Shown piece after piece: positions 5,697 to 16,316 of a stretch of 64,000 bases of DNA. The DNA is from Xiphias gladius (taxonomy: Eukaryota > Chordata > Actinopteri > Istiophoriformes > Xiphiidae). Position 1 is the first letter of the stretch. The number at the start of each line of letters is the position of its first letter. Under the pieces are notes generated by a model, which ran no database searches, was not told the origin of the DNA, and saw only the letters and a program-made list of their open reading frames with translations. The stretch is from contig NC_053407.1 of assembly GCF_016859285.1 (NCBI RefSeq), positions 23,610,857-23,674,856 of the forward strand. Reading direction: 5' to 3'. Made by a program: the position numbers and the translations under genes.

Positions 5697-8600
5697 TCAC
5701 TGCTGGACTCGTAAAGAGATGTTTGGGTTACTGTGGCTGTTGCTGTTTGCCGCTTTGCCCTCCTGTATTTGACTCCTGGAGTTTCTGCTCACGCTCTCCT
5801 TCTCGAATCCCGGCAGTGACGCCTCAGCCGCTGCCGTCTGCAAAGATTGATCAAAAAAATCAAACTATCGCCACGGTTCCAGCAGTTCAGACCCCTCCAA
5901 TCAAGAGGCTATGCTCAAACACATCCGCTCACCTGTAAGCTGGCGTTCACAATGGTCCTGAAAGCAAGGTTCGAGGACACATTTTTTATCAGTGATGGAC
6001 TCCTGTGGAATAAGAGAGGTTACAGAATTTCAAAATAGACACAATCCATGTCTAATTCATGGCAAGAAAATCAATACCTTGTATATATTCCAAAAACCAC
6101 AAAATGGTAAACAGCAATAGTTTGAGGCAAGGTCGGTTACGATGACAAATAATTAATTCGAATGAATGATCAGGAAAAGTCCTCGTATTAGAGCCCGCAA
6201 ACTGTCGCCATAGTTATTCCGATCATATTTATCATTCATTTATTGAGGATTATAATTGAAAAAAACAAACGTGTGCTATACTGCAGCTGCAGTATAGAAC
6301 CAATTTAGGCCTAAACCATAGACAGGAAGAACACAGGCCAGAGTAGTAAGCGACAACATACTTGTATTTACTTTATGCTTATTTCATTTTTGATTGATGT
6401 TACGTTCAGTCAATCAGTGGGCTTTCTACCCTGTGAACTGTACACAAAGGTGCCTTAAAACATCTTAATTTTTGTTGATGGAATACAAGGTCTAAAAAAG
6501 ACAAAGTGTATAAAATTTTGAGAGTTAATATTTAATTTAATATTTATTTAATTAGATCTGGGGCAGACAAAGCGAGCATATACTGTGTACAGTTTCTCAT
6601 TCAGTCTTAATACTGCTATATATTTTACAACAAGGATCTATTTGCAAGTTAATTAGACTACACTCCACTAAATAGTAGACGGTACACCATGATCCATGTT
6701 AAAACTCAGACGAGGCAAAAGAAAAAGGTTTTTCTGTATTTCTACCTGAATACTGAAACCAAGACAGGAAACCCTTGAGAATCTTTGCTTCAGCCCTTTT
6801 TACCAATGAAATGGCGTCATTTATTGTTTTGGAAGTGTTAAAAAATGTCTTGATTATTGTCATATTCGAACTGAAATACGTGCAGGTACCCTTTACAACA
6901 GTGCTGCGACAAGCGGGAAGGTATCTACTGTACCCTGGGATCTTCTGGGATCTCCTCCTCTGGTATTCCACCTCATCCACCGTCCACACGGCACCTTTCA
7001 CGTTCTCCACACGCACGAAACACTTGTGCAGGCTCAGGTTGTGGCGAACTGCGTTCTGATCCAGAGAAAATCAGAGCGAAGGAGATGTCACTGAATACAT
7101 GCTGCCTAAATCAAGTATGACACGCACAACTGGGATCACAGAGTTAATTATCTGCGGGCGTGATACCTTCCAAGTGGCAGCGTTGCGTCGGAAATAAGCA
7201 AACGTCCGTGTGAACCAGTTGTATATCTCGTTGAGTGTTAGCTGCATGTCTGATGCTTCCATAATAGCCTGTAGATGGAGAGTAAATAACAAACTGGAGC
7301 ACATTACGGGGCCAAATTAAAGCCTTGACTGTTTCACCTCTAATCCAAGGAATGAGGGGAAAGTCGTACACTCATAACTCTGAAACAATCTTTTTATTTT
7401 CAACTTCAAGAATCAACTTTTGGGCACTTCTTACATTACCTATTTTACAATTAAAGCCATTAACCTTCTCACTGACACATGTGGATAGTGTATAGGCGTA
7501 GGGCCGAAACTAAGGATTATTTTCATGATTGATTAATCTGTAAATTATATTACTGATTAATTAATTAATTGTTTGATTTATAAAATCTTAGAAAAAAGCC
7601 CAAAGCCCAAGCTGACCCATTTAAATTCCTTTTTTTCCCAATCAGCACTCCAAAACCCCAAGATACTCCATTTTCTATCACAGACAACTAAGAGAACCAG
7701 CAAATACTCATATTTAAGAAGCTGGAACCAGGGGACTGGTGGCATTTTCGCTTGATAAATTACTTAACTAACTAAACATTTCAGCTGTGGACATGTGATT
7801 CAAGTGAACGAGCTCACATAGGAATAGTCATTTCTCGGAAAGAAAGGCCTTCAGCATTAAAATGTCCATGTTCTAGGGAGCAGCGAATACAAAAAAGAGA
7901 AAACGCAGACTAAAAATCACCAAGGAGAAAAACACCTGGATGCTAAAATACACATTTCAGTATTTAAAAATGTAAATGATATAAATATTCATCAAATACA
8001 TCAAATACAAATACTCATCTTATATTCTACGTCAAAGATTGTACCTGTCTTATCAGTGTTGCGTAGGTGAAAGGTGGTCTGATATCAGTGTTCTTGTAGA
8101 GCTCATATTCATTTTCTGAAAGAAGACACAACATATGAAGTGGAAAGTGGAGTAGAAAATGTGCTATGAACTATTCATTTGCTGTGAGAACATAATGTGA
8201 AAGTGACCACAGCATTTGGTTTACCTGACGACAACGAGTAAACCAAGGGGTGGTGTCGCTGTCTCATGGCCCCAGCACGTGCTGTATGAGTGGGCGACTC
8301 TTCTTCTTCACACCCCTGGGATGGAGCGCTGACAGGGGCCAGTGGTCGGGGGGGGGCTTGTGCCGAGTCTGACGGGTTCAGCGAGGGCAGGCTGAGCTGA
8401 GAGCGACACAAGGGGACGATTTCAAGTTAACAAAGGAACGGGCGGAATGGAAAGACTGACAGACGAACCAAACACAGAGGGAGTGTAACAGAGCAATTTG
8501 ATTCGCCTCTTCAGAGGTGATTCCACTAATATCACAAGAAGAGGGAAGCCAATTATTGTTAATCACAGGGTGAAATTGTTTGGTGAGTGTTGTGATTATG

Positions 8601-14600: not shown

Positions 14601-16316
14601 AAATATAGCTTATTATTTAAACAGTGTATGTCTTTTCTCAAATGATGAATATCCCTTTTTTTCTACATATAAAATGTCATTTGCTGTACATATGTGCAAA
14701 GGTTGTGACGTGATGTCCCTCAAGGCTTCACTGAAGGCTTTCAGTGAAGCCTTAGGGCTATAGTGGTGTAATATGTTGGATGTAATGAAAGAAGAAGGAC
14801 ACGTGAGGAATCAAAAGTTTCTCATTTTTGTCATCGGTCCAGTCACCGTCTGTGTTTCAACCAGACAGATAAGTCAACTAAAAGGACAAGAACAATGGAA
14901 ATAGGTCGAGGAATAACTGTTTTTGCACACCCGGTGTGTGGATCTGAATTGAACCAGAGACAGTAACATGACAATCAAACAAAACAAAAAAAATTAAAAA
15001 TGGCAGACACAAAGCAGTGGTGAAATTAGTGGAAAATGTGCAGTATTTATTCGGATATTTACAGTCTTTACATACACAAAAAACGTTCTCTACACGTGGG
15101 TGCAACAGAAAGTTGATTTTGCCAAAATTAATAAAGCAAAATTGAGTTAACCCAACTCATCAAACTAAAGTCTAGGTCTATGAAAAAACAAAAGATTTAA
15201 CTAATTAATAATGTACTGGGTGCACCACTCAACACACCTAGTGTGTCCAACAAAAGTCACCCAGGTGTATAAAAATGTGCAAGGTAGCCAAACTTAGCCC
15301 ACCACATACCTCTTAAATTTCACAACAATTGTAGTTAGACCAAACAAGCAATTTGAAGATGCTGCCTCGGACTTGGGAAAATCTAGTGGACATTTTTCAC
15401 AATTTTCTGACAATTTATAAAATTATTAAAGTAAATGATTAATCAGTGCAGTGGGAAAAATAAAAATAGTTGCAGCTCTAGTCTCACACTCTGTGTCTTT
15501 CCTGAATCTTCTTTAGAGTGTAGTTTTAAATAAGGCACTGACATCCAGCTAGCTTCATCATCAATTATCATTATCAATGTTTTTTTGCCATGTTGTTAAA
15601 ATTCTTTAAGTTGGTTGAAGGTGAAGGCCACTACAGGTACATATTTCGAGAGTGAATTAAGAGACAAGGACAGAATAAAACGAGCAAGATGAGAGAACAG
15701 TCTGAAGGAAACGGTGCTGGCCAGGGGTTCATTATCTTTGTTGTTTCATTGATTTCCTAGATTAAGATTCCCTGGGATGGAATCGTAACAGACAACCATA
15801 AAATTATGTTGGGCCATGCTTATTTGCCTTTCACTTGCATCTGTTTGGCCTACTTAGGTCTTTGAACAATTATTCCTCCATGGCTCTGACTCACAAACTA
15901 ATAATGAAGGACAAACAGAGTTCTGCACGTCAACTCCCAACTTAGATCACATCTCATATGAAATCCCTGGCACGGTCAACAGAACTGCAGGCTCTGGGTT
16001 GGGTGTCCTGTCAGAGGATGTCCAATATGGAGTCGACTTGCGGTATTTCTCATGACATCTGCTTGACTAAGACCGTTCTGTTTCCCGCTTATGGAGAGGA
16101 GGAGGAAGAGACGAAAGACGAAGAAGAGGAGGACGAGAAGTAGGAGGAGAATGTATATACCTGTTTATGGTGGAGACTCTGCCAGTTTTCACCACTCACT
16201 CCACTGCAGGAGTCCCCATTAGCTACTCTCTCTCCTGTGCCGTTGTCTGTGTGACTGAGGAGGCGGCTGGCTGGGGTTTGACGGGCTGCTGTGGGACTGA
16301 GAGGAGACTCAGGCAT
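5697..16316 (-). CDS. foxp2-like: FOXP2-like forkhead transcription factor (compact, divergent)
   Basis: A FOXP-subfamily DNA-binding repressor, acting as a dimer in the nucleus. I can place 14 coding exons (minus strand): 16316-16161 (ATG at 16316), 14094-13990, 12704-12621, 12149-12013 (or 12041), 11367-11200 (or from 11359), 10741-10679, 9814-9727, 9249-9112, 8396-8225, 8115-8045, 7268-7167, 7055-6934, 6002-5933, 5837-5697. All junction phases agree, giving about 526-538 residues. In order: a short N-terminus, Gln-rich segments ([24 protein letters not shown]), a C2H2 finger ([13 protein letters not shown] to KHIGSEH) split over two exons, a leucine zipper ([14 protein letters not shown]), then the forkhead ([12 protein letters not shown] to EYQRRRSQK). 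Forkhead residues TFAYFRR, SSD-like ASD, EVEYQ and SQKI(P)G favour FOXP2 over FOXP1/3/4, as do neighbours ppp1r3a, bmt2 and tmem168. Oddities: only about 10.6 kb, a short atypical C-terminus ending NISLRVQQ instead of the acidic FOXP2 tail, and no visible PLNLV motif. Confidence 0.85.
6276..6297. repeat. perfect 22-bp palindrome
   Basis: CTATACTGCAG followed directly by its exact reverse complement CTGCAGTATAG, with no spacer, in a FOXP2-like intron between the exons at 6002 and 6934. Its role is unknown. Confidence 0.8.
7503..7790. repeat. dispersed teleost-type repeat with ATTAATC-rich ends
   Basis: Diverged copy of a repeat family that recurs in this window (also near 15395, 41872, 47815 and within the 57.7-58.9 kb duplication). 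Shared signature: imperfect ATTAATC-type ends, an internal segment reading roughly 'aaaatgccc...cccaa', then an 'agctggaaccag' block and 'aaaattacttaa'. I do not know its formal class. It lies in an intron of the FOXP2-like gene. Confidence 0.55.
9821..9854. repeat. CA/TG microsatellite abutting a splice acceptor
   Basis: About 17 CA units on the plus strand. Read on the transcribed minus strand it is a TG tract ending six bases before the tttcag acceptor of the 88-nt zipper exon (9814-9727). Confidence 0.95.
9861..10612. mobile_element. piggyBac-like miniature element flanked by TTAA
   Basis: About 744 bp bounded by TTAA on both sides (9861-9864 and 10609-10612). The left end AGGAATCCTCCGCTGAAAAT matches the reverse complement of the right end at about 18 of 20 positions. 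A TTAA target duplication plus terminal inverted repeats is the signature of piggyBac-type transposons. No transposase is encoded, so this is non-autonomous. It sits in the intron between the zinc-finger and zipper exons of the FOXP2-like gene. Confidence 0.7.
12264..12294. repeat. TATC tetranucleotide microsatellite
   Basis: Seven to eight TATC units with one TGTC variant, in the intron between FOXP2-like exons at 12149 and 12621. Confidence 0.85.
14717..14757. repeat. 41-bp near-perfect inverted repeat (hairpin)
   Basis: The left arm (14717-14735) is the reverse complement of the right arm (14740-14757), with a single bulged base and a 4-base loop (ggct). It lies in the intron between FOXP2-like exons 1 and 2. 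The loop is shorter than usual for a microRNA precursor. Confidence 0.75.
15395..15482. repeat. fragment of the ATTAATC-ended dispersed repeat
   Basis: A short reverse-oriented piece ('aaatgattaatcagtgcag' and 'aaatagttgcagctctag') of the family seen at 7503, 41872, 47815 and 57782. It is intronic in the FOXP2-like gene. Confidence 0.4.

Follow-up and report, generated by a model that had tools for sequence, protein, structure and literature searches.

Two FOXP2 genes have been described in teleost fish, FoxP2a and FoxP2b, which stem from the teleost duplication (Song, Wang & Tang, 2013; PMC3857310). In that account, FoxP2b is truncated and fast-evolving, with a branch omega of 0.139 versus 0.030 for FoxP2a, and is absent in zebrafish; S520A and S532N are given for the FoxP2b of the Neoteleostei ancestor, and teleost FoxP2a is described as lacking a long poly-Q tract. 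The locus considered here lies in a stretch of 64,000 nucleotides of the Xiphias gladius genome (contig C8, positions 23610857-23674856; hereafter the window, to whose first letter positions given without a contig refer), whose gene content points to a teleost. On the minus strand, positions 5475-16316 carry a FOXP gene for which a hand-built model gives 15 coding exons, 585 amino acids and a coding span of 10,842 bp.

Judging from its sequence, this gene is in all likelihood foxp2b, i.e., the additional FOXP2 copy of teleosts; the gene is intact and most probably functional. It is very probably an ordinary member of the FoxP2a/FoxP2b pair, of a kind already described in 2013 (PMC3857310), to which the exon-by-exon model and a non-coding element shared by the two copies are modest additions.

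Identity and orthology of the window gene

The predicted product combines in one protein the FOXP coiled-coil region, i.e., zinc finger plus zipper, and the forkhead domain that characterize the FOXP subfamily. The Pfam profile PF16159 (FOXP-CC) matches with 114 bits (cut-off 28.9; E 4.6e-33) and PF00250 (Forkhead) with 94.8 bits (cut-off 27; E 3.4e-27), so that the initial annotation, made from the letters alone, was right to place intact forkhead, zinc finger and zipper exons here. It was equally right in judging them closest to FOXP2: compared with solved structures, the forkhead scores 182.7 bits against FOXP2, versus 166.4 for FOXP4, 161.0 for FOXP1 and 144.3 for FOXP3. Over the forkhead, 81/87 positions are identical to foxp2a of this genome and 82/87 to those of human FOXP2, versus 75/87 and 73/87 to two foxp1 genes, 74/86 to foxp4, and 76/87 and 74/87 to human FOXP1 and FOXP4, respectively.

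A search of the whole genome (690.8 Mb, 1298 contigs) with the FOXP-CC profile returned 12 exon matches at six loci. One of these is the window gene (C8); the others were assigned by tblastn with a human FOXP2 query to foxp2a (C2), foxp1 (C21:26.63 Mb and C18:22.26 Mb), foxp4 (C21:20.33 Mb) and a foxp3-like gene (C18:0.46 Mb). The second, long foxp2 for which a search had been proposed thus exists: foxp2a occupies C2:12374343-12435006, with 16 coding exons, 757 amino acids and AG before and GT after every intron, its exon 2 (C2:12434824, 93% identity) and exon 3 having been located by an N-terminal query. Its span of 60,664 bp bears out the compactness noted for the window gene.

The two genes lie on paralogous segments. 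To one side of the window gene, a gene with a CBM_21 domain (20311-21237), which we take to be PPP1R3A, is matched best, elsewhere in the genome, at C2:12482966 (57% identity); for a gene without a Pfam match (40510-41745), presumably TMEM168, the corresponding place is C2:12565618 (51% identity). Both counterparts stand beside foxp2a with order and orientation preserved; with these assumed names, the window shows the neighbourhood of the FOXP2 lineage, as compared with foxp2a of the same genome. This synteny is stronger evidence of orthology than the tree. Residues 520 and 532 agree with it, being A and N in the window gene and S and S in foxp2a, as expected from the substitutions given for FoxP2b (PMC3857310); residue numbers here and below follow a human FOXP2 sequence anchored on R553 and depend on the alignment.

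Several observations nonetheless weigh against this identification. The tree, a small one whose fish sequences come from one genome, groups the window gene with FOXP2 at a support of 90/94, which is under the tool's mark, and the approximately unbiased (AU) test does not reject its grouping with FOXP1 (p 0.19) or FOXP4 (p 0.17). The foxp1 and foxp4 groups are supported at 99/99 and 99/96, respectively, and the branch of the foxp3-like row is long and unsure. Support for the two fish copies as sisters reaches 58/51, with an AU p of 0.34 for the alternative joining foxp2a to human FOXP2, which very slightly lowers our confidence in the identity. Over the zinc finger and zipper, the gene is as similar to foxp4 as to foxp2a, with 56/80 identical positions in each case. 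In addition, positions 519 and 521 are E and S in the window gene but D and A in foxp2a, which misfits E519D arising before the duplication, as suggested by Song et al. (PMC3857310). Finally, the exon edges of both gene models were picked by hand from splice sites, homology and frame, so that the phase agreement with foxp2a described below is partly built in.

The AU results are what speaks for a gene of foxp1, foxp4 or foxp3 type, together with the fact that FOXP3 ends soon after the forkhead, as the window gene at first appeared to do. Such an identity is most improbable, since foxp2a, two foxp1, foxp4 and a foxp3-like gene are already assigned to the five other loci, the forkhead shares most identical positions with FOXP2, the foxp2 neighbours are duplicated on C2, and an intronic element is common to the window gene and foxp2a (see below). 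FOXP3 in particular was ruled out, the forkhead being identical at 64/84 positions to mouse FOXP3 and at 66/84 to the gene at C18:0.46 Mb. For the preferred foxp2b reading, the assignment of the duplication to the teleost one rests on the published pair (PMC3857310) and on synteny rather than on the small tree.

Three further features of the neighbourhood were recorded. A single-exon forkhead gene on the minus strand (18466-19497; PF00250 101.8 bits) stands between foxp2b and the PPP1R3A-like gene; it is presumably FOXQ2-like, and its closest counterpart elsewhere in the genome shares only 46% identity over 102 amino acids. On the plus strand, an open frame of 1031 codons without a Pfam match (23006-26101) follows the CBM_21 exon and is probably the long last exon of the PPP1R3A-like gene. 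A BMT2-like gene, also on the plus strand (36409-37125), matches PF11968 with 20.3 bits, barely above the cut-off of 20, and has no second genome match at E 0.001.

Exon structure and the C-terminal end

The modelled exons, numbered as in foxp2a, are as follows.

16161-16316, minus strand: exon 2, with the start codon and 52 amino acids, phase 0; the ATG lies 13 nt past a good acceptor (10 nt in foxp2a)
13990-14094, minus strand: exon 4, phase 0; tblastn 35.4 bits, splice sites and phase; shortened relative to foxp2a
12621-12704, minus strand: exon 5, phase 0; tblastn 41.6 bits; GC donor (GC-AG intron)
12041-12149, minus strand: exon 6, Gln-rich, 109 bp versus 181 bp in foxp2a; tblastn 35.8 bits, splice sites and phase
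11200-11377, minus strand: exon 7, shortened and diverged (178 versus 286 bp), phase 1 as in foxp2a; profile independent E-value 0.0018, best of 2787 segments
10679-10774, minus strand: exon 8, zinc finger; tblastn 54.7 bits
9727-9814, minus strand: exon 9, end of the zinc finger and leucine zipper; PF16159 match, E 2.3e-9
9112-9249, minus strand: exon 10, end of the zipper and diverged linker, longer than in foxp2a (138 versus 84 bp); PLNLV motif absent
8225-8396, minus strand: exon 11, diverged linker, from the gene model; shortened relative to foxp2a
8045-8115, minus strand: exon 12, start of the forkhead; tblastn 44.3 bits
7167-7268, minus strand: exon 13, forkhead, with A520, M523 and N532 (human numbering); PF00250 match
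6934-7055, minus strand: exon 14, forkhead, R553 retained; PF00250 match
5933-6002, minus strand: exon 15; tblastn 28.9 bits; 70 bp and phase equal to foxp2a
5701-5837, minus strand: exon 16, shortened (137 versus 308 bp), closing at CA/GTGAGT in phase 2
5475-5604, minus strand: exon 17, highly likely the last coding exon, ending NDEEHLFDLE-stop; from acceptor, phase and open frame

These exons join in phase into 585 codons without a stop or frameshift, and the phase at exon start agrees with foxp2a in 15/15 shared exons (exon lengths and phases, and the pairwise dN/dS values below, were compared with a foxp2a model that lacked one codon where exon 5 begins). Thirteen of the 14 introns are GT-AG; the remaining one, after exon 5, is GC-AG, its donor (12615-12620) being the sole non-GT donor, at a place where foxp2a has GT. 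Aligned identity to the 757-amino-acid foxp2a is 304/569.

The initial annotation reported the second Gln-rich exon as not found. That exon, exon 6, is present, and the one that could not be found is exon 3 (90 bp, phase 0-0 in foxp2a): no remnant above chance was detected in the intron after exon 2, 178/200 shuffled queries scoring as high. Poly-Q is indeed short, as had been stated, but this is not peculiar to the window copy, foxp2a of this genome also being without a long tract. The placement of exon 2 rests on its start codon, acceptor, position and phase; its similarity to exon 2 of foxp2a is not significant alone (322/1000 shuffles match the score), which belongs with the points against the reading given above, and it was not among the six matches listed for an exon-2 profile.

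The protein had also been predicted to end in NISLRVQQ, without an acidic tail. Read straight through, exon 16 does so, but the TGA sits inside a phase-2 donor (GCA/GTGAGT); the apparent stop looks like a misread donor. The same straight reading gives VHM-stop in foxp2a and PAM-stop in the foxp1 at C21:26.63 Mb, an in-frame TGA within a phase-2 GTGAG donor at exon 16 being common to the three genes, while exon 16 of foxp4 closes at a different donor, GTACGT, without an in-frame TGA. Among the 654 GT sites of the gene, the donor in question stands at the 96.2nd percentile, scored by general donor frequencies. The intron before exon 17 measures 96 bp and has a pyrimidine-rich acceptor, and the junction is in phase; the product of exon 17 ends in NDEEHLFDLE-stop, compared with LSEDLE-stop in foxp2a. 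On the basis of this splice structure, exon 17 is highly likely to be real.

If, conversely, the protein truly ended at NISLRVQQ and 5475-5604 were not an exon, one would expect what is seen in the sequence of exon 17 itself: its similarity to the foxp2a tail is weak (39/1000 shuffles match the score), it is not among the six best matches listed for hidden Markov model profiles of FOXP tails, and its GC content at third codon positions is 0.42 versus 0.60 for the gene. The strength of the donor, its occurrence at the homologous place and phase in foxp2a and the C21 foxp1, and the in-phase, DLE-stop ending typical of FOXP2 make such an early end unlikely, and we retain exon 17. The coding span proposed initially (5697-16316) therefore keeps its 16316 edge and is extended to 5475 at the other, where exon 17 had been missed. 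More generally, the case illustrates how a phase-2 GTGAGT donor can mimic a stop codon.

Compared with foxp2a, the predicted gene has thus lost exon 3; exons 4, 6, 7, 11 and 16 are shortened, with lesser trims elsewhere, exon 10 is longer, and the linkers and tail have diverged. The view that its N- and C-terminal parts are altered holds in this form, although the C-terminal alteration as first described was a donor read as a stop.

Selection, motifs and the shared non-coding element

Over the forkhead, the window gene and foxp2a differ by 7.0 non-synonymous changes for 203.8 sites and 39.0 synonymous changes for 57.2 sites, i.e., pairwise non-synonymous (dN) and synonymous (dS) rates of 0.035 and 1.8, respectively, and a ratio of 0.019. 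The proportion of non-synonymous differences (pN) exceeds 0.5 in exon 2, exon 7 and the exon 10-11 linker. The whole-gene dN/dS, which had been proposed as a check, is 0.139 and serves as a rough guide only, being near saturation (proportion of synonymous differences 0.733). In relative-rate tests with five outgroups over 191-192 domain columns, changes on the window side versus the foxp2a side number 33 v 5, 25 v 7, 24 v 3, 22 v 7 and 21 v 7 (p 4e-6 to 0.013), the window gene evolving faster in each. The low forkhead ratio, the high pN elsewhere and these relative rates together indicate that the DNA-binding part is strongly constrained and the rest freed or changed. With the long foxp2a and two duplicated neighbours on C2, this agrees with the original suggestion of a foxp2 duplicate under relaxed or changed selection.

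The elevated rate would also be expected of a decaying copy heading to a pseudogene, whose frame is open by chance or whose function was lost recently; the missing exon 3, the GC donor at exon 5, the highly diverged linkers and the failure of Song et al. to find FoxP2b in zebrafish (PMC3857310) point the same way. Decay is, however, very improbable: the 585 codons hold no stop or frameshift, splice sites are unbroken save the tolerated GC donor, 7.0 non-synonymous versus 39.0 synonymous differences in the forkhead need long-term purifying selection, and the shared non-coding element is retained too. FOXP2 is famed for its conservation, and an intact foxp2b would show that change is tolerated in the linkers, the tail and exon 3 but not in the forkhead, the zipper and the splice phases.

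The zinc-finger cysteines and histidines, zipper positions 388, 395, 402 and 409, and R553 are retained. PLNLV (422-426) reads PASLQ in the window gene, the SUMO site VKEE (673-676) reads LKEK, and residue 406 in exon 10 is natively Thr where human has M. M406T is a rare human FOXP2 variant, apparently without effect on dimerization, PLNLV is a suggested CtBP site that is not essential for CtBP2 binding, and residues 259-329, encoded by one exon, may suffice for that binding (PMC5126810). K674 is the major SUMO site, and cell assays of human K674R, in which it is lost, detected no effect (PMC4751435). The weight of the motif losses is consequently uncertain, which also tells against the functional side of our reading.

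The FoxP2b protein would still dimerize, with itself or with FoxP1, FoxP2a or FoxP4, and in this form bind the usual forkhead sites, while its linkers and tail appear to have lost or changed co-repressor and SUMO motifs. It could thereby serve as a FOXP subunit that recruits co-repressors differently, and probably more weakly, and that is expressed in part of the foxp2 domains, its range depending partly on the one intronic element retained. We tentatively propose, as a possibility rather than an expectation, that selection has maintained FoxP2b as a modulator of the network of FOXP dimers: it would have kept DNA binding and zipper and shed CtBP-type and SUMO motifs, and a single ancient intronic enhancer, retained by both copies ever since the teleost genome duplication, would set its expression.

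The element concerned is the following.

15741-15989, minus strand: candidate enhancer, a non-coding element common to both copies, within the intron that follows exon 2; blastn match to C2:12422162-12422408

It was found when 32 kb (the first 22 kb of the window and the 10 kb on its left side) were compared by blastn with 80 kb surrounding foxp2a; identity is 73.6% over 254 columns (E 1.7e-33, 141 bits, versus at most 41.0 bits in 40 shuffles), and the element lies in the intron after exon 2 of both genes in the same orientation. Each of the six frames of a stretch of about 340 bases contains a stop in both copies, the longest open run being 61 codons in the window and 46 on C2, and mismatches fall 33/30/32 by phase; the element thus does not look coding, and a promoter, a non-coding exon or an enhancer would all fit. 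Since the 32 kb and the 80 kb share no other strong match outside exons, it makes a small candidate for a core foxp2 enhancer. A genome search with the element found two places, the window and C2, although the absence of further matches does not prove rarity, and Rfam gave 0 matches in the window at the gathering threshold.

Other matches were set aside. A second shared stretch (3336-3489 to C2:12362090-12362243, 45.5 bits) is barely over the best of the 40 shuffles and is not claimed, a 41.0-bit match at -2463, outside the window on its left, breaks the order, and simple repeats contain or adjoin those at 2169-2240 and 21818-21949. Two further 10-kb flanks on C2 gave just two 33.7-bit matches. 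Enhancers of zebrafish foxP2 have been described (PMC2579431). A report of the element was not found among the titles and abstract openings listed, and the words intron, noncoding, non-coding and regulatory are absent from the main text of Song et al. (PMC3857310).

Comparison with known FOXP genes

The FOXP1, FOXP4 and FOXP3 loci of the same genome share the FOXP-CC and forkhead domains with the window gene, and the foxp1 at C21:26.6 Mb shares its exon-16 donor with the TGA. They differ from it in the lower identity of their forkheads, and foxp4 uses another donor at exon 16. Compactness was also observed in the foxp1-like copy at C18:22258655-22262701, whose exons 4 to 14 fit in about 4 kb and which has accumulated changes faster than its partner (23 v 3 and 13 v 2 in tests with two outgroups); from exon 2 to exon 17, the C21:26.6 Mb foxp1 spans about 79 kb and foxp4 about 56 kb.

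With canonical FOXP2 and foxp2a, the window gene shares domain order, exon phases, forkhead, zipper and a tail ending in DLE in both copies; it differs from foxp2a by one coding exon fewer, by its length (585 versus 757 amino acids; 10.8 versus 60.7 kb) and by its diverged linkers. The closest described system is the teleost FoxP2b of Song et al. (PMC3857310), likewise a shorter second foxp2 on a paralogous segment, with a foxp2a-like exon composition and truncated regions, fast evolution, and S520A and S532N. Whereas FoxP2b exon compositions are called "still obscure" in that report, the present locus offers an exon-by-exon model with phases, a missing exon 3, a GC-AG intron and a non-coding element shared with foxp2a.

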